Source: an uncultured Eubacteriales bacterium (GTDB lineage: Bacteria > Bacillota > Clostridia > Christensenellales > Aristaeellaceae). Taken from it: a stretch of DNA of 47,995 nucleotides. Positions 1-45,806 of the stretch are shown here, one piece after another. The first letter of the stretch is position 1. Each line of letters starts with the position of its first letter. Location: the NCBI GenBank assembly GCA_944349855.1, contig CALVNS010000021.1, forward strand, positions 1 through 47,995. Reading direction: 5' to 3'. A program made the position numbers and the translations under genes. The notes beneath the pieces are model-generated. The model was not told where the DNA came from. It saw nothing but the letters and a program-made list of their open reading frames with translations, and did no database searches.

Positions 1-990
1 GTGATCTCCACCTTCATCGGCTGGAAGCCCTTCACCTCGTACACGCCGCTCGACGACCCCGTGGTGGCTGTCGCTTCGGCATCCGTGGAAGCCGAAACGC
101 TCTCATCCGTACCCGCACCCGTCGCCTCCGCGGCCTGCTTCAGCGCTTCGTTGATCGCATTTTCAGTCATCGTCGCATTCGACACCACGTCGAACTCCGC
201 CGTCGCGATGTCCTGACCAATCAGGCTGTCAAAGCCGTTCGCGATCACATCCGCGCCATAGCCCGGCGTCTCGTTGTGCTCTACCACCGCAAAGTTCGTG
301 ATCTTCCCGTCTTCGACGGTGATCTCCACCTTCATCGGCTGGAAGCCCTTCACCTCGTACACGCCGCTCGACGACCCCGTGGTGGCTGTCGCTTCAGCAG
401 AAGCGGCCGCACTCTCTTCTTCGCTCGACCCCGTCGCCTCCGCAGCCTGCTTCAGCGCCTCGTTGATCGCGTTGGACGTCATCGTCGCGTTCGACACCAC
501 GTCGAACTCCGCCGTCGCAATGTCCTGACCGATCAGGCTGTCAAAGCCAGCCGCGATCACATCCGCGCCATAGCCCGGCGTCTCATTGTGCTCCGTTACC
601 TCAAAGCTCGTGATCTTTCCATCCTCGACGGTGATCTCCACCTTCATCGGCTGGAAGCCCGTCACCTCGTACACGCCGCTCGATGACCCTGTCAAGGCCA
701 CAGTCTCAGCGCCCGTACCCGTCGCCTCCGCAGCCTGCTTCAGCGCCTCGTTGATCGCGTCGGACGTCAGCGTCGCGCCGGATACCACGTCGAACTCCGC
801 CGTCGCAATGTCCTGACCGATCAGGCTGTCAAAGCCAGCCGCGATCACATCCGCGCCATAGCCCGGCGTCTCATTGTGCTCCGTTACCTCAAAGCTCGTG
901 ATCTTTCCATCCTCGACGGTGATCTCCACCTTCATCGGCTGGAAGCCCGTCACCTCGTACACGCCGCTCGACGATCCCGTGGTGGCCGCC
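1..990 (-). repeat. In-frame tandem repeat encoding small FMN-binding modules of RnfG
   Basis: A conserved block begins on the plus strand at 1, 319, 631 and 919, giving periods of 318, 312 and 288 bases, all multiples of three. Each unit encodes a module of about 80-90 residues running from GVYEV-GFQPMKVEITVEDG to INEALKQAAEATG, joined by variable Ser/Ala/Thr/Glu-rich linkers such as TGTGAETVALTGSS. Sequence identity between copies is very high at DNA level, which implies recent duplication or gene conversion; the linkers differ most. The array continues beyond base 1. Confidence 0.93.
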
Positions 991-1997
991 GCTTCAGGCT
1001 TGGGCACCAAGTACTGATTGTAGAAATCGACCGCCTGACCAACCGCCTTGAAGACCGCATTGGAAGAGACCGTCGCACCGGACATCGCGTCGACGCCCTC
1101 CATATAGCCTTCCGCCGTCGCCGCATTGCCGTCGAACTGGCCGCAGAAGGCCGGATCCGTCGTCTTGGCGCCATAGTCCGGGGTTTCGTTATTGGCCGTC
1201 ATGACAACCTTGGAGATCACGCCGTCCGTCGTGATGCCCATGCGCAGGCCAATCTGATCGGCAAATCCCTTCGACGAGAGCTCAAAGACATAACCCACTG
1301 CATCGTCGCCGACTGTGCCCGTGTAGATGGACTGGATGGTTTCGTAATCGCCCAGCAGGCTCATCACATCCAGCGCCTCAAAGGCCTCGGCCGCATCGAC
1401 GAACTCCTTGCGCACAAGGTCGTCGCCTTCAAGCGTCGGAACCGCCGCATTGGGCACGACGCCCAGCACATCCTTCGAATAGGCCGTCATCTGGCGAACC
1501 GCCGTAACAAACGCCTGCGAGCTGATCGTTGCGCCAGAAATCGTCTGCACGTTCGCATCGATCTCGGCCGGATCGGCGGCCAAGCCGGGGAACTGTCCCA
1601 TGAACGGCTCTTCGCCGACCTTAGAACCCAGACCGGCGGTCTCCTGCAAATCCCCCACAGACACGCCATGGATGGAACCGTCCGTCCCGATGCCCAGCGT
1701 AATCGGGATCGGGCCGCCGTATCCCTGAGGAGCGGCAGTCATCACATAGCCGACGACCTCGTCGCCCGTCTTGCCCACGTACAGCTCCGTGATCTGGTCG
1801 TACTCGGGCGCAGTCTGGATTTCCTGCGTCTCAAAGATCTCCGCCTCGGGCAGCACCGCGCGCTGCGCGGCCTGGCTGGCGGCCAGCTCCTGCTGCGCGA
1901 TCGGGCCGGACGTGATCTCGTTGGTGACGGCCAGCGCCAGCGCGGCAATCAACGTAAAGATGAACAATCTGAGGCCGAGCTTCGTCACATCACGCAT
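1..1997 (-). CDS. rnfG: RnfG, electron transport complex subunit G, with C-terminal tandem FMN-binding modules (3' end outside window)
   Basis: RnfG is the membrane-anchored flavoprotein subunit of the Rnf ferredoxin:NAD+ oxidoreductase. The frame opens with ATG at 1997, eight bases inside the end of rnfD, behind GGGGAGG. It starts with one membrane anchor (KLGLRLFIFTLIAALALAV) followed by NEITSGPIA, typical of RnfG. The first FMN_bind domain has ISGATISS (plus-strand 1527-1538, about residue 155) and a second has DAMSGATVSS (1071-1082, about residue 307). A classical RnfG has one such domain and about 200 residues. Here the frame stays open for 665 codons to the window edge and continues into near-identical modules of about 100 residues, each with ETPGYGAD and a flavinylation-type motif: DVVSGAT at 771-782, then DVVSNAT at 483-494 and 171-182, with a further module beginning. 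The flavin is expected on the Thr, placed by ApbE outside the cytoplasm. The tandem array is seen directly; multi-flavin function is inferred. Confidence 0.9.
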   Translation of the reverse strand, partial: MRDVTKLGLRLFIFTLIAALALAVTNEITSGPIAQQELAASQAAQRAVLPEAEIFETQEIQTAPEYDQITELYVGKTGDEVVGYVMTAAPQGYGGPIPITLGIGTDGSIHGVSVGDLQETAGLGSKVGEEPFMGQFPGLAADPAEIDANVQTISGATISSQAFVTAVRQMTAYSKDVLGVVPNAAVPTLEGDDLVRKEFVDAAEAFEALDVMSLLGDYETIQSIYTGTVGDDAVGYVFELSSKGFADQIGLRMGITTDGVISKVVMTANNETPDYGAKTTDPAFCGQFDGNAATAEGYMEGVDAMSGATVSSNAVFKAVGQAVDFYNQYLVPKPEAAATTGSSSGVYEVTGFQPMKVEITVEDGKITSFEVTEHNETPGYGADVIAAGFDSLIGQDIATAEFDVVSGATLTSDAINEALKQAAEATGTGAETVALTGSSSGVYEVTGFQPMKVEITVEDGKITSFEVTEHNETPGYGADVIAAGFDSLIGQDIATAEFDVVSNATMTSNAINEALKQAAEATGSSEEESAAASAEATATTGSSSGVYEVKGFQPMKVEITVEDGKITNFAVVEHNETPGYGADVIANGFDSLIGQDIATAEFDVVSNATMTENAINEALKQAAEATGAGTDESVSASTDAEATATTGSSSGVYEVKGFQPMKVEI

Positions 1998-2976
1998 GGC
2001 TCTTTACCTCCCCAAAGGACTTCGGCGTCGTCACGCGCTCAATCAGCGGCGCGGCAACGTTCATAAACAGGATCGCATAGGAGCAGCCCTCGGGCATGGA
2101 GCTGTTAAACGTGCGGATGATGAACAGCAACGCGCCACACCCCACGCCGAAGATGATCTGCCCCCAAGGCGTCACGGGAGAAGAAGAATAGTCCGTCGCC
2201 ATAAACAGCGCGCCCAGCATCAGGCCGCCGCTCAGCAGCTGATAGAGCGCGGAATTAGCGCCCGCCTCAGCGCTGTAGAACGTGCCCGTCTGAATCCAGA
2301 ACAGAATCAGGCAGGTGCCAAGGAACGTGGCGGGAATGCGCCAGTTGATCACGCGGCGGAAGAGCAGGTAGGCCGCGCCGATGAGCAGCGCCAGCGCGCT
2401 CGTCTCGCCCAGCGTACCAGGACAGTTACCAATGAATAGATCCCAAAGACTGTACGCGCCAGCCTCAGCCTGCAGCGGCGTCGCGCCAGAAACGACGTCC
2501 GTCGCCGCAGGGGTCAGGCCAGCCAACCAGTTCCCGCCCTGCGGAGCGACCCAGGCGGTCATCAGCGTCGCCCAAGAAGCCAGCAGGATTGCACGCGCCG
2601 CCAGAGCCGGGTTCATGAAGTTCTGGCCAATGCCGCCAAAGAACTGCTTGACCAACACGATGGCGATGGCCGAGCCGATCGCCGCAAGCCACCACGGCGC
2701 GGAAGCGGGCAGATTATACGCCAGCAGCAGGCCCGTCACGACCGCGCTGAAATCCCCGACCGGAATCGGCTTTTTCGCATGCTTGCAGTAAAACCACTCG
2801 CAGAACACCGCCGACAGCACCGATACGGCAATCAGAATCGCTGCGCGAAGGCCGAAAAACCAGATGCTTGCCAGGCCCGCCGGAATCAGTGCGATGCACA
2901 CGTCCTGCATCACGCGGCGGGTGGATACGTTGTCCCGCAGATGCGGAGAAGAGGATACGGTATATTGCTTTTGCAT
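1990..2976 (-). CDS. rnfD: RnfD, integral membrane flavoprotein subunit of the Rnf complex
   Basis: RnfD belongs to the NqrB/RnfD family, a multi-pass inner-membrane subunit that carries a covalently bound FMN and takes part in ion translocation. The 328-residue product has the family N-terminus (SSSPHLRD), multiple hydrophobic helices, the central QNFMNPALAARAILLASW segment and the flavinylation motif DVVSGATPL, with the attachment Thr near residue 166. The length fits the family. It sits 21 bases after rnfC and overlaps the start of rnfG by eight bases, the usual C-D-G order. Nothing suggests degradation. Confidence 0.95.
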   Translation of the reverse strand: MQKQYTVSSSPHLRDNVSTRRVMQDVCIALIPAGLASIWFFGLRAAILIAVSVLSAVFCEWFYCKHAKKPIPVGDFSAVVTGLLLAYNLPASAPWWLAAIGSAIAIVLVKQFFGGIGQNFMNPALAARAILLASWATLMTAWVAPQGGNWLAGLTPAATDVVSGATPLQAEAGAYSLWDLFIGNCPGTLGETSALALLIGAAYLLFRRVINWRIPATFLGTCLILFWIQTGTFYSAEAGANSALYQLLSGGLMLGALFMATDYSSSPVTPWGQIIFGVGCGALLFIIRTFNSSMPEGCSYAILFMNVAAPLIERVTTPKSFGEVKSHA

Positions 2977-2997: not shown

Positions 2998-4323
2998 TCA
3001 AGACTTCTTCGCGCTGGCGCGGATGCCCATCTTGGCCATGCGGCAGCTCTGGGTCAATTCGCGCTTGGCGGGACAGACGAACGTACAGGCTCCACACTCC
3101 ATGCAGTTCATGGTGCCAAGCTTGGAGCACTCTTCCCATTGAGACCGGCGCGCATATGCGTCGATGCGGGTCGGCACCAAGCGCATCGGGCAGGCCTCCA
3201 CACAGCGCCCACAGCGAATGCAGGGCGACTCCTGCGCATGCACGCCCTCTTCGCCCAGCGCAAGCAGCCCACCGGTTGACTTGGTGACCGGGATATCCAA
3301 CGAGGAAATCGCCATGCCCATCATTGGGCCGCCAAGCACGACCTTGCGCACGCCGTCTTCCAAGCCGCCGCACGCCTCCACGAGCTCATAAATCGGCGTG
3401 CCAATGCGCGCGCGCAGATTGGCGGGCTTCTTCACACGGCCCGCAACCGTCACCACGCGGTCGATCAGCGGGCGGTTCTCGCGCACGGCCTTCGACACGG
3501 CGTAAGCGGTGGAAACGTTGCTCACGACCGTTTGCACGTCTGCGGGAAGCGCACCATTGGGCACGCGCCTGCCAGTGAGCGCAAAGATCAACTGTTTTTC
3601 ACCGCCCTGCGGGTAACGCGTGGGCAGCGCAACGACCTCGATGTTCTTACCCTCGGCAGCCTGACGCATGGCGGCGACGGCATCGGGTTTATTGTCCTCA
3701 ATGCCGATGAGCAGCTTCGTCGCGTTCAAGATCTTGGCCTCGAGCAGCATGCCGTCGATGACTTCCGCCGCATGCTCGACCATCAGACGATGGTCGCTCG
3801 TCAGGTACGGCTCACACTCTGCGCCGTTGAGAATCAGCGTGTCCACGTGCTTTTCAGCGGGCGGCGCCAGCTTGACCGCTGTCGGGAACGTTGCGCCGCC
3901 CAGGCCGACGATACCCCGATCCCGCACAATTTCAAGCAGCTGCTTGGCGTCCAAGGAGCCTACATTCTGGCGCGGTTTGACGTTTTCATCCCAGCGGTCC
4001 TGGAAATCGTTCTCGATGACGACCGCGGGCACGCGCTGGCCGCTTGCCACCACGCAGCTCGAAATCGCCTTCACCGTGCCGGAGACGGACGCATGTACCG
4101 GCGCGGACACGAAGCCGCCCGCCTCACCGATTACCTGACCCATGGCGACCGCCTGTCCGGGGGTCACGACGCACTTGCAGGGTGCGCCGATGTGCTGGGA
4201 AAGCGGAATCACAACACATGCGGGAACCTTCGCATCGATCACCGGCTGCGCATTGGTGGATTGCTTTCCATTCCCCGTCTCATGCGGGTGCACGCCGCCC
4301 TTAAACGTCCGTGTATTTGCCAC
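2998..4323 (-). CDS. rnfC: RnfC, peripheral iron-sulfur/NADH-side subunit of the Rnf complex
   Basis: RnfC is the cytoplasmic-face subunit that exchanges electrons with NAD(H). The protein has the FKGGVHPHE start region, the glycine-rich GLGGATFPTAVKL nucleotide/flavin-binding loop near residue 145, NGAECEPYLTSDH, and two 4Fe-4S motifs near residues 368-378 (CIRCGRCVEACP) and 407-417 (CMECGACTFVCP). I chose the GTG at 4323 (441 residues) because GGGAGG lies nine bases ahead of it; an in-frame TTG at 4329 is too close to that site. It is the first gene of the operon, 60 bases below a strong extended -10 promoter, and is followed by rnfD and rnfG; rnfE, rnfA and rnfB are expected just outside the window. 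Confidence 0.95.
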   Translation of the reverse strand: MANTRTFKGGVHPHETGNGKQSTNAQPVIDAKVPACVVIPLSQHIGAPCKCVVTPGQAVAMGQVIGEAGGFVSAPVHASVSGTVKAISSCVVASGQRVPAVVIENDFQDRWDENVKPRQNVGSLDAKQLLEIVRDRGIVGLGGATFPTAVKLAPPAEKHVDTLILNGAECEPYLTSDHRLMVEHAAEVIDGMLLEAKILNATKLLIGIEDNKPDAVAAMRQAAEGKNIEVVALPTRYPQGGEKQLIFALTGRRVPNGALPADVQTVVSNVSTAYAVSKAVRENRPLIDRVVTVAGRVKKPANLRARIGTPIYELVEACGGLEDGVRKVVLGGPMMGMAISSLDIPVTKSTGGLLALGEEGVHAQESPCIRCGRCVEACPMRLVPTRIDAYARRSQWEECSKLGTMNCMECGACTFVCPAKRELTQSCRMAKMGIRASAKKS

Positions 4324-4383
4324 AGACAAGTTCCTCCCTTCAGCCCAACAACGTTAATTGGATCACAAAATCATCCGCCCAAT

Positions 4384-43778: not shown

Positions 43779-45764
43779 TCAGTTGTTGATGCGCCTGAAG
43801 CGCTTCTCCAGCTCACTGCGCGTCAGGCGCACGACGAGCGGCCGCCCATGCGGGCAGGTCGGGGGCGCGTCCGTCTCCTCCATCTGGCGGATGAGCGAGG
43901 CGATCTCCTCCTGCGTGAGCGCGTCGCCGCCCTTGACCGCGCGCTTGCAGGCCATCTGCAGGATGGCCTCGCGCCTGCGCTCCCGGGTGGCCAGCACGCG
44001 CAGCTCGCCCAGGCGGTCGAGCATCTCGACGAAGGCCGCCCGCGCCTGGGGCTCGCCGAGCACCACGGGCACCGCGCGGATCTGATACGTATCCTCCCCG
44101 AACGGCTCAAACGCGAAGCCGGCCGCCTCGATCTCGGCCCGGTACTGCTCCAGCCGGTCGCGCTCCTGCGGCGTGACGGGCACGACCTGCGCCACGAGCA
44201 TCTGCTGCGAGCCCGTCCCCTGGTCCAGCGAGCGCATGAGGCGCTCGTAGAGGATGCGCTCGTGCGCGGCGTGCTGGTCGATCAGCAGGAGCTCCTGCCC
44301 CCGCTGTACGATGACATACGTGTCAAACGCCACGCCGATCACGCGCGGCGGCCTTTCGGTCGGAGCGGCGGCCATGTTCTGCTGCTGCGGCGGCGTCTCC
44401 GGCTGCACGGGGGCGGCCTGCGCATCCGGCGCGGTCTCGACCGGCTGGGGAGCCAGGCGCGCGCTCATCGCGGAAAAAGCTCCGACGCCGGGCACGTTGC
44501 GCAGGGTATGCGCCCGCTTTTCCGGGCTGCCAAAATAGGAGGTCACCACGCGCGCAAACGCCGCGGCCTCCCCCTCCGCCGGCTTCACGGGCACAGTTCT
44601 GGGCGCCGGTGAGACCGAGCGGGCGGGCTCCGGCTGTGCGGGCGGCTCCGGCTGCGCGGGCGGCTCCGGCTGCGCGGGCGGCTCCGGCTTGTGTTCCGGC
44701 GCCGGCACGACGCGCACGCTCGCCACCGGCTCCGGATCGTTCGAGAGCGTCATCTCGGGCGCCTGGGCAAACGCCCCGGTCTCAAACCCGCCGCGCACCG
44801 CGGCGAACACGCTGTCATAGACGACGGGTTCGCTGGAAAAGCGCACCTCCAGCTTGTTGGGGTGCACGTTCACATCCAGCATGGGGCCGGGCATGGACAC
44901 GTGCAGCATGCAGATCGGATAATGCCCGACCGTGACCCGCTCGCGGCAGGCGTCCTCCAGCGCCTGGGTGAGCAGGGCGTTGCGCACGTAGCGTCCGTTG
45001 AGGATGAACGTCTGATGCGTGCGGTTGGCGCGCGCCAGCGGGCCGACGCCGACCAGGCCGCGCACGCCCACGCCGCCCTCGCCGCGCACGTCGATCAGCT
45101 GGCGGGCGACGTCGCGGCCGTATACGCTCAGCGCCGCGGCGCGCAGGTCGCCGTTGCCGGGGCTGGCATAGATCTGCCGGTCGTTGTGCGTGAGGCGGAT
45201 GGCGACCTCGGGGTGGGCGAGGATCATGCGCAGGATCATGTCGGCCACGCGCGCGCCCTCGGTCGCCGGCTTTTTGAGGAATTTGCGGCGCGCGGGCGTG
45301 TTGTAGAACAGCTCGCGCGCGACGATCGTCGTGCCCTCCGGACTGGCTGCGTCGGAGATGGACGTGATGACGCCGCCCTCGTTGATCACGCGCGTGCCCG
45401 ACTCGTCGCCGCGCGTGCGCGTGGTCATGGTGACTTTCGAGACCGCGGCGATGGAGGCCAGCGCCTCGCCGCGAAAGCCCAGCGAGCGCAGGTCGAACAG
45501 ATCGTCGGCCCGGGTGATCTTGCTGGTCGCGTTGCGCTCAAAGGCCATGCGCACGTCCTCGCGCCGGATGCCGCTGCCGTTGTCCGTGACGCGCAGATAG
45601 CTGATCCCGCCCTCGCGGATCTCGACCGCAACGGCGCGCGCGCCCGCGTCGATGCTGTTCTCGACCAGCTCCTTGATTGCGGCCGCCGGGCTCTCCACGA
45701 CCTCGCCCGCCGCGATCTTGCCGACGATGTCGGCATCCAGCTTGCGAATCGGCCTGTATTCCAT
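43779..45764 (-). CDS. mutL: DNA mismatch repair protein MutL
   Basis: MutL couples mismatch recognition by MutS to strand incision. The 661-residue protein has the N-terminal GHKL ATPase (AAGEVVESPAAAIKELVENS, DNGSGI, GFRGEAL, FYNTPARRKFL), a Pro-rich linker from about 340 to 475 containing PEPPAQ repeats (about 359-381), and the C-terminal dimerization/endonuclease domain with DQHAAHERILYE (D496 to E507), ACKRAVKGG and CPHGRPLVVRL. The DQHA(X)2E(X)4E motif marks the nicking endonuclease type. Complete; 42 bases after mutS. Confidence 0.96.
   Translation of the reverse strand: MEYRPIRKLDADIVGKIAAGEVVESPAAAIKELVENSIDAGARAVAVEIREGGISYLRVTDNGSGIRREDVRMAFERNATSKITRADDLFDLRSLGFRGEALASIAAVSKVTMTTRTRGDESGTRVINEGGVITSISDAASPEGTTIVARELFYNTPARRKFLKKPATEGARVADMILRMILAHPEVAIRLTHNDRQIYASPGNGDLRAAALSVYGRDVARQLIDVRGEGGVGVRGLVGVGPLARANRTHQTFILNGRYVRNALLTQALEDACRERVTVGHYPICMLHVSMPGPMLDVNVHPNKLEVRFSSEPVVYDSVFAAVRGGFETGAFAQAPEMTLSNDPEPVASVRVVPAPEHKPEPPAQPEPPAQPEPPAQPEPARSVSPAPRTVPVKPAEGEAAAFARVVTSYFGSPEKRAHTLRNVPGVGAFSAMSARLAPQPVETAPDAQAAPVQPETPPQQQNMAAAPTERPPRVIGVAFDTYVIVQRGQELLLIDQHAAHERILYERLMRSLDQGTGSQQMLVAQVVPVTPQERDRLEQYRAEIEAAGFAFEPFGEDTYQIRAVPVVLGEPQARAAFVEMLDRLGELRVLATRERRREAILQMACKRAVKGGDALTQEEIASLIRQMEETDAPPTCPHGRPLVVRLTRSELEKRFRRINN
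44623..44690 (-). repeat. In-frame 18-base tandem repeat in the mutL linker (PEPPAQ)
   Basis: The plus strand reads GGCGGCTCCGGCTGCGCG at 44641-44658 and 44659-44676, with a variant copy before and a partial copy after. Each unit encodes six residues (PEPPAQ), so copy-number change keeps the frame and only alters the linker length. Confidence 0.85.
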
Positions 45765-45806
45765 CGCGCGCTCCTTTCATGTCATGATCGGGTTGCGGTT
45801 CTGTCG

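Follow-up and report, generated by a model that had tools for sequence, protein, structure and literature searches.

The window, the whole stretch of 47,995 nucleotides that was analysed, is an entire contig (C21) of a 2.73 Mb genome (G000, 99 contigs, 92.8% complete). At its beginning, a single open frame runs on the minus strand from position 1997 to 3 and is still open at the contig end, giving 665 residues. The frame is identified as rnfG by NCBIfam TIGR01947, with 223 bits summed over five stretches and the best of these at residues 8-175; the stretch of the first domain alone scores 112.8 bits against a cut-off of 102. Pfam finds five FMN_bind (PF04205) domains in the same frame, and a tandem repeat of period 288 (score 1397) covers positions 1-997. 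Upstream of rnfG and in the same direction lie rnfD and rnfC, see Table 1. The rnfD translation contains the motif SGATPL, which we take to be the RnfD flavinylation site.

The three genomes of the genus (G000, G001 and G002) each have all six rnf genes, spread over two contigs in G000 and G002. In G001 the operon is unbroken and the intact array-bearing gene sits between rnfD and rnfE. No apbE gene was found within the window; each of the three genomes has one ApbE match, which in G000 is on contig C61. Far from the rnf genes, an 18-bp repeat at window positions 44619-44689 encodes a Pro/Glu/Ala/Gln-rich linker inside a frame at 43782-45776 on the minus strand, presumably MutL-like.

Table 1. 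Features of the rnf locus in the window, with the residues of the 665-residue frame
Feature	Position	Strand	Residues	Motif and putative acceptor	Evidence or remark
rnfG with FMN_bind array	3..1997	-	665 aa in window		Truncated by contig end; Pfam, TIGR01947
rnfD	1990..2976	-			TIGR01946, 325 bits, cut-off 207
rnfC	2998..4329	-			TIGR01945, 555 bits, cut-off 246
N-terminal membrane-anchor and linker helix of RnfG	1854..1991	-	3-48		AlphaFold helix; chain matches
FMN_bind domain 1, RnfG type	1491..1724	-	92-169	SGATISS, Thr157 (1527-1529)	
FMN_bind domain 2	1035..1268	-	244-321	SGATVSS, Thr309	
Array unit u1	678..965	-	345-440	SGATLTS, Thr409	Resembles CbFMN4 domain 1 (8p2b)
Array unit u2	366..677	-	441-544	SNATMTS, Thr505	
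Array unit u3	48..365	-	545-650	SNATMTE, Thr609	
Array unit u4	3..47	-	First 15 residues		Cut by contig end
Terminal 77 bp, identical to 319-395	1..77	.			Exact repeat; assembly stop point

Array anatomy and the flavin-accepting residue

Residues 4-169 of the frame match the RnfG chain 9eri_G and residues 6-169 match 7zc6_G, while residues 353-423 match domain 1 of CbFMN4 (8p2b, a crystallised covalent-FMN module) with an E-value of 6.6e-07. A Foldseek search with the predicted model ranks 7zc6_G first (E 1.4e-10, TMt 0.71), then 9eri_G (E 6.4e-10), and lower in the ranking CbFMN4 domain 1 (E 0.007, TMt 0.81). Thus, the protein is a canonical RnfG that carries modules of the multi-flavin type.

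Domains 1 and 2 are separated by 74 residues, and units u1, u2 and u3 are 96, 104 and 106 residues long. AlphaFold, given 22 sequences drawn only from the window and the named loci, predicts five confident domains (mean pLDDT 85, pTM 0.36) joined by linkers in which pLDDT falls below 50 (residues 186-209, 335-340, 525-540 and 630-648). The model therefore suggests modules arranged as beads on a flexible string, without any fixed mutual arrangement. The array is acidic, with a pI of 4.05 and a charge of about -42 over 330 residues.

The original prediction described a second domain and at least four smaller modules, four copies of which were said to be near-identical in DNA. The expanded FMN_bind array on RnfG stands, but the window holds only three complete modules and 15 residues of a fourth. 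Near-identity applies just to u1 and u2 (228/234 positions); u2 and u3 share 210/234, u1 and u3 204/234, and the stub of u4 is identical to u3 at 45/45 positions. Pfam also reports Peptidase_Prp inside the array (31.2 bits, above the cut-off of 27), with no single stretch that passes, and we take this to be a chance resemblance repeated by the array. IceA2 (Pfam) and several Prp models (NCBIfam), all below their cut-offs, have their best stretches in the FMN_bind modules and were likewise set aside.

The flavin-accepting position was compared over a wider set of modules, detected with a profile built from the 25 of 29 seed rows that passed a motif filter and then refined. It detected 330 modules; six were incomplete at a contig or locus end and were set aside, which left 324, of which 315 are distinct. 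The accepting residue is T (303) or S (12) in all 315 distinct modules, a count to be read with the seeding in mind, as modules that had lost the motif along with much of their remaining sequence could escape such a profile. Leaving out locus L167, T or S is found in 85/85 single-domain proteins, 43/43 first domains of arrays and 186/186 later modules, and the canonical motif [ST]GA[TS] in 76/85, 21/43 and 112/186, respectively. The residue is also kept in all 134 modules from 23 rnf-adjacent array loci. In an alignment of 192 later modules the acceptor (189 T, 3 S) is the most conserved fully occupied column, and neighbouring motif positions vary. Multi-flavinylated proteins are expected to show Dxx[ST]GA[ST] in each domain. 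Within the window, three of the five domains have [ST]GA[ST] and two have SNAT, which lies outside this canonical pattern; all five have the acceptor Thr.

According to the consulted part of a review (PMC12052999), changing this Thr to Ala abolishes flavinylation, and the G-to-A and A-to-V changes lower its degree, to about 50%; the G-to-N change that would correspond to SNAT is not mentioned in that part. Reading the motif variation as loss of flavinylation is not supported, as the acceptor is never lost among the detected modules. Most likely, each module carries FMN on its motif Thr, attached by the ApbE of the same genome, and the flavinylation by ApbE that the original prediction had set as a condition is in this respect plausible: the acceptor is kept and an ApbE gene is present in G000.

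It is conceivable, though unlikely, that the modules are mainly a spacer or a stalk crossing the cell wall and that most of them are not flavinylated. The many noncanonical motifs noted above and the free variation in module number would suit such a role. However, an acceptor retained in every distinct later module, together with strong conservation of further positions in the motif region, argues against it.

The contig break and the extent of the arrays

The contig ends inside an exact 77-bp repeat, which is the pattern expected of a short-read assembler halting at a repeat, so that the modules counted in the window are a minimum for G000. A misassembled or collapsed repeat could leave the same trace, particularly in a genome of 99 contigs. 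In G001, however, which is assembled in three contigs, a contig of 3.97 Mb spans the array; the gene is whole and encodes 925 residues with 2 + 6 = 8 FMN_bind domains (found with the profile built here), followed by rnfE, rnfA and rnfB. The G002 array is divided between two contigs: one carries six FMN_bind domains, of which the last is cut, and the other carries three, which makes at least nine in total. Because G001 spans the array whole and G002 carries modules on both sides of its own break, the array is real in this genus, and an assembly artefact, which the original prediction had named as a risk, is refuted as the source of the array.

Contig C24 of G000 opens with an rnfG-like tail, after which come rnfE, rnfA and rnfB, and the genes beyond rnfB resemble, in their translations, those beyond rnfB in G002. 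It is probably the other side of the break. Its start (L052:1-54) resembles a diverged final module and contains an in-frame TAG, which is either a contig-end error or the mark of a damaged or truncated last module. The downstream sequence from which the modules were to be counted is probably that of C24, and a whole gene is available from G001.

How common such arrays are depends on the taxonomic level. In a sample of 200 genomes of the family, 190 have a TIGR01947 match at an E-value of 0.001 or better, 77 of them over the cut-off. Frame lengths were taken from the best 150 of these matches, which represent 147 genomes after the second rows of three were dropped (the window, G001 and G002 are included): 21 frames have at most 260 residues, 14 have 261-400 and 112 have more than 400. 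Among these 112 listed frames, 36 fall at 510-585 residues, the size range of the RnfD-RnfG fusions seen here (not each frame was individually confirmed as one), 59 are longer than 585 and 10 are longer than 1000; a long frame alone is no proof of adjacent rnf genes. For the class, 202 of 291 genomes match TIGR01947 at 1e-15. The list has 149 matches in addition to that of the window, with a few genomes occurring twice; none of the 149 exceeds 400 residues and four exceed 300, although weaker class-wide matches outside those listed could hide arrays, as members of the family often score low.

From 402 named loci with similarity to RnfG domain 1, 80 were kept, and 12 of the 80 have two or more FMN_bind domains. 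Five of these 12 have rnf genes in the stretch (L125, L126, L127, L149 and L196), and several of the other seven are cut by contig ends. By RnfG domain 1, the nearest named loci are metagenome-assembled genomes of Clostridia, the two best (53-54%) from water-deer rectum.

The fusion of an expanded array to RnfG had been called unusual. This holds for the class-wide matches listed but not for the family, where more than three quarters of the listed genomes (112 of 147) exceed 400 residues. Here, the arrays are common rather than rare, as the 59 frames above the fusion size indicate, and this is the survey outcome that the original prediction had itself named as refuting it. Judged from these comparisons, the array appears to be a widespread, actively reshuffled trait of one bacterial family.

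Homogenisation, selection and rearrangement

Between G000 and G002, the two nearest species, the RnfG core (first 330 residues) has a Ks of 0.396 and a Ka of 0.014. The modules of the window differ from each other with Ks 0.043 for u1-u2, 0.458 (Ka 0.084) for u1-u3 and 0.395 for u2-u3, i.e., u1 and u2 are far closer than the cores of the two species. The modules of G001 have a median Ks of 0.190 among themselves (Ka 0.006) but of 0.593 and 0.680 against the modules of G002 and G000, respectively. In each of the 30 proteins that have three or more modules after the first, the modules resemble one another more than they resemble those of other proteins (medians of the mean values 0.59 vs 0.36); L118 and L167, both among the 30, are apparently one contig, and proteins of the same genus were kept separate. 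The sequences thus point to duplication and/or gene conversion within the arrays, by which modules are homogenised within species, and the proposal that the array is still expanding or being homogenised is borne out by them.

The Ka/Ks of about 0.03 among the G001 modules indicates purifying selection on that array, and the window modules show weaker-looking selection than this. One could therefore ask whether the arrays are a selfish or neutral repeat expansion whose extra modules have no selected role. Homogenisation, copy numbers that differ among close species, the in-frame TAG at the start of C24 and the higher Ka/Ks in the window would all fit, and relaxation in the species of the window is possible. 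Nevertheless, the low Ka/Ks inside the G001 array, together with the fact that many genera of the family have arrays adjoining rnf genes, makes neutral expansion a distinctly improbable general explanation.

Several motif variants are common to whole arrays: SGVT or AGVT occurs in most modules of L096, L125 and L127, xRAT in six modules of L098 and AGAT in four of L102. The six modules at L098:3173-6370 are near-identical, and their motifs alternate between TRAT and SRAT, as would result from the copying of a two-module unit.

The origin of the array was examined by nearest neighbours in other loci, where the three genomes of the window genus were taken as one locus and other same-genus pairs were left in. 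Of 92 array modules, 80 lie closest to an rnf-linked array module, 10 to a non-rnf-adjacent array module, two to a single-domain RnfG and none to a domain 1. Domain 1 itself neighbours another domain 1 or a single-domain RnfG in 18 of 22 cases. Because none of the 92 has domain 1 as its nearest neighbour, an array made of serial copies of RnfG domain 1 is not favoured. Descent from a detached multi-FMN protein was not adopted either; detached modules neighbour each other in 14 of 15 cases, nearly all from one genus.

Arrangements were surveyed with tblastn, using the G001 Rnf proteins, in 40 loci, of which 37 belong to the same family and were hand-chosen towards long frames (ARRANGEMENTS). 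In 13 of the 37, an RnfG-type frame containing between 2 and 11 FMN_bind domains adjoins rnf genes; it is found between rnfD and rnfE (L096, L100, L124) or ahead of rnfC (L086-L088, L092-L095, L105, L109, L116). Nine others have rnfD and an FMN domain in one frame (L085, L089, L091, L104, L106, L107, L108, L110 and L112), and one more locus, L117, is ambiguous; Pfam confirms the fusion (PF03116 and PF04205) in L091 (2289-3839), the one frame to which it was applied. In L091, L106, L107 and L108, which are of one genus and of the fusion type, a separate frame with at least three FMN_bind domains follows rnfB. Single-domain RnfG occurs in three loci (L103, L111 and L113). The stretch holds no rnf gene in 11 of the 37, and in five of these the array extends up to the point where the contig or locus stops.

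The loci that have RnfG-like multi-FMN arrays but no rnf genes in the stretch are L097:2693-5842, L098:3173-6370, L101:3163-5778 and eight others. Some neighbours of non-rnf-adjacent arrays have a start that, to our eye, looks like ApbE. At L094:3125-7867, a 1581-residue RnfG-type protein continues beyond its eight FMN_bind domains for about 630 residues in which Pfam finds no match.

A possible electron branch from Rnf and its known relatives

According to a review (PMC12174285, as far as consulted), RnfG probably passes electrons by swinging from RnfA-RnfE to RnfD and back, and a second pathway to extracytosolic acceptors has been proposed for multi-flavinylated RnfGs in the RNF section of Méheust et al. 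2021 (PMC8238504). We suggest, with a probability of roughly 60%, that the arm is an electron exit or entry branch off Rnf, i.e., a true RnfG with a flexible multi-FMN array that reaches extracytosolic partners. The protein would be membrane-anchored, and domain 1 would do the normal job in Rnf, taking electrons from the iron-sulphur cluster of RnfA-RnfE to RnfD. C-terminal to it would follow a flexible arm consisting of FMN domain 2 and of short, flavinylated modules, variable in number, on disordered linkers. Tied to the mobile domain 1, this arm would be placed to take or give electrons there, so that RnfG would be the point at which electrons pass out of, or into, the Rnf circuit, with the arm bridging the distance to their partners. 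We infer flavinylation of the modules, as well as electron flow through the arm and its direction. Counting against this reading are the two SNAT motifs of the window, the zero count of CxxCH haem motifs in the window and G001 ORFs, the single potential of the FMNs in SaFMN3 and the weaker-looking selection on the window modules, besides the lack of a partner in G000 described next.

What the partners might be was approached from the gene content of the genus. FAD_binding_2 (PF00890) is a family of fumarate-reductase-like enzymes. A profile search of G000 found no FMN_bind domain outside RnfG (5/5 matches fall in RnfG), and neither G000 (best match 37.6 bits over 41/414 positions) nor G002 has a full-length FAD_binding_2 protein; for G000, at 92.8% completeness, these absences are provisional. 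G001 has eight full-length matches on contig C3, and in four cases the same frame contains an FMN_bind match as well. The array thus does not follow the presence of the reductase in the genus, and the idea that it generally feeds flavinylated fumarate-reductase-like enzymes of the same cell is not supported there. Nor did the proposed link to extracellular electron transfer gain from G000, with no other FMN_bind protein and no full-length FAD_binding_2 protein to take part in it.

With no partner found in G000, an electron buffer or scavenger becomes a reasonable rival, although a clearly less probable one: the covalent flavins would store electrons near Rnf or pass them to oxygen or peroxide, without a dedicated partner. 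In the consulted part of PMC10339131, the three FMNs of SaFMN3 have a single potential, and reduced SaFMN3 reacts with oxygen; both would suit a buffer, and the shared potential implies that such a string has no built-in direction. A buffer does not by itself account for up to 11 domains with long linkers, however, and the four frames of G001 that combine FAD_binding_2 and FMN_bind are possible partners within the same genus.

Building on the electron-branch reading, it can be speculated, more tentatively, that in this family Rnf carries the flavin arm as an interchangeable add-on, which may sit on RnfG at its usual place, on an RnfG moved to the head of the operon or on a separate multi-FMN protein behind an operon with an RnfD-RnfG fusion. 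As the arm holds all FMN_bind domains found in the assembled G000, Rnf itself would in the species of the window be the sole flavin-based exit to the outside, and its ion pumping could be linked with extracellular electron transfer directly, with no need for a dedicated reductase. If the arm conducts, it would give the Rnf ion pump a built-in respiratory side exit that is free of haem and composed solely of protein and flavin. The family offers natural variants, with one to eleven FMN domains, fused or detached arrays and noncanonical motifs across whole arrays, which could serve to test conduction along a flavin string, the reading of the motif by ApbE and the use of electrons on the outer face of Rnf.

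The multi-flavinylated kind of RnfG and the branch model are known since 2021 (PMC8238504). As here, the RNF clusters described in that section include RnfGs with several FMN-binding domains, with a subset in Christensenellales. That subset has a multi-haem domain, whereas the CxxCH motif count is zero in both the truncated window ORF and the intact G001 ORF, and a multi-haem RnfG identity was rejected on this ground. The section says nothing on homogenisation of modules, motif variants, RnfD-RnfG fusions or the extent across the family. A literature search likewise found no account of module homogenisation or of the fused and detached arrangements; the supplementary cluster table of that paper, outside the search, may list the genus. 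New here are the extent across the family, the concerted evolution, the motif variants of whole arrays, the RnfD-RnfG fusions with a detached array and the lack of any other FMN_bind protein in G000.

SaFMN3 and CbFMN4 (PMC10339131) and the beads-on-a-string models of Huang et al. 2024 (PMC11334425, with PMC10979944 as another version) share, in the parts consulted, the tandem short FMN_bind modules on flexible linkers. However, SaFMN3 and CbFMN4 are not described there as parts of Rnf, while here the modules hang on RnfG. The RnfG chains of Acetobacterium woodii (9eri_G, 207 residues) and Clostridium tetanomorphum (7zc6_G, 189 residues) share the helix and one FMN domain with residues 4-169 of the window protein, but they end after that domain where the window protein continues. 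Finally, the Rnf of Methanosarcina acetivorans with its multi-haem cytochrome (PMC12174285, as far as consulted) is likewise an Rnf with an added multi-cofactor conduit. That conduit is archaeal, uses haem and is a separate subunit, whereas the array of the window is predicted to be of the flavin type and is fused to RnfG.
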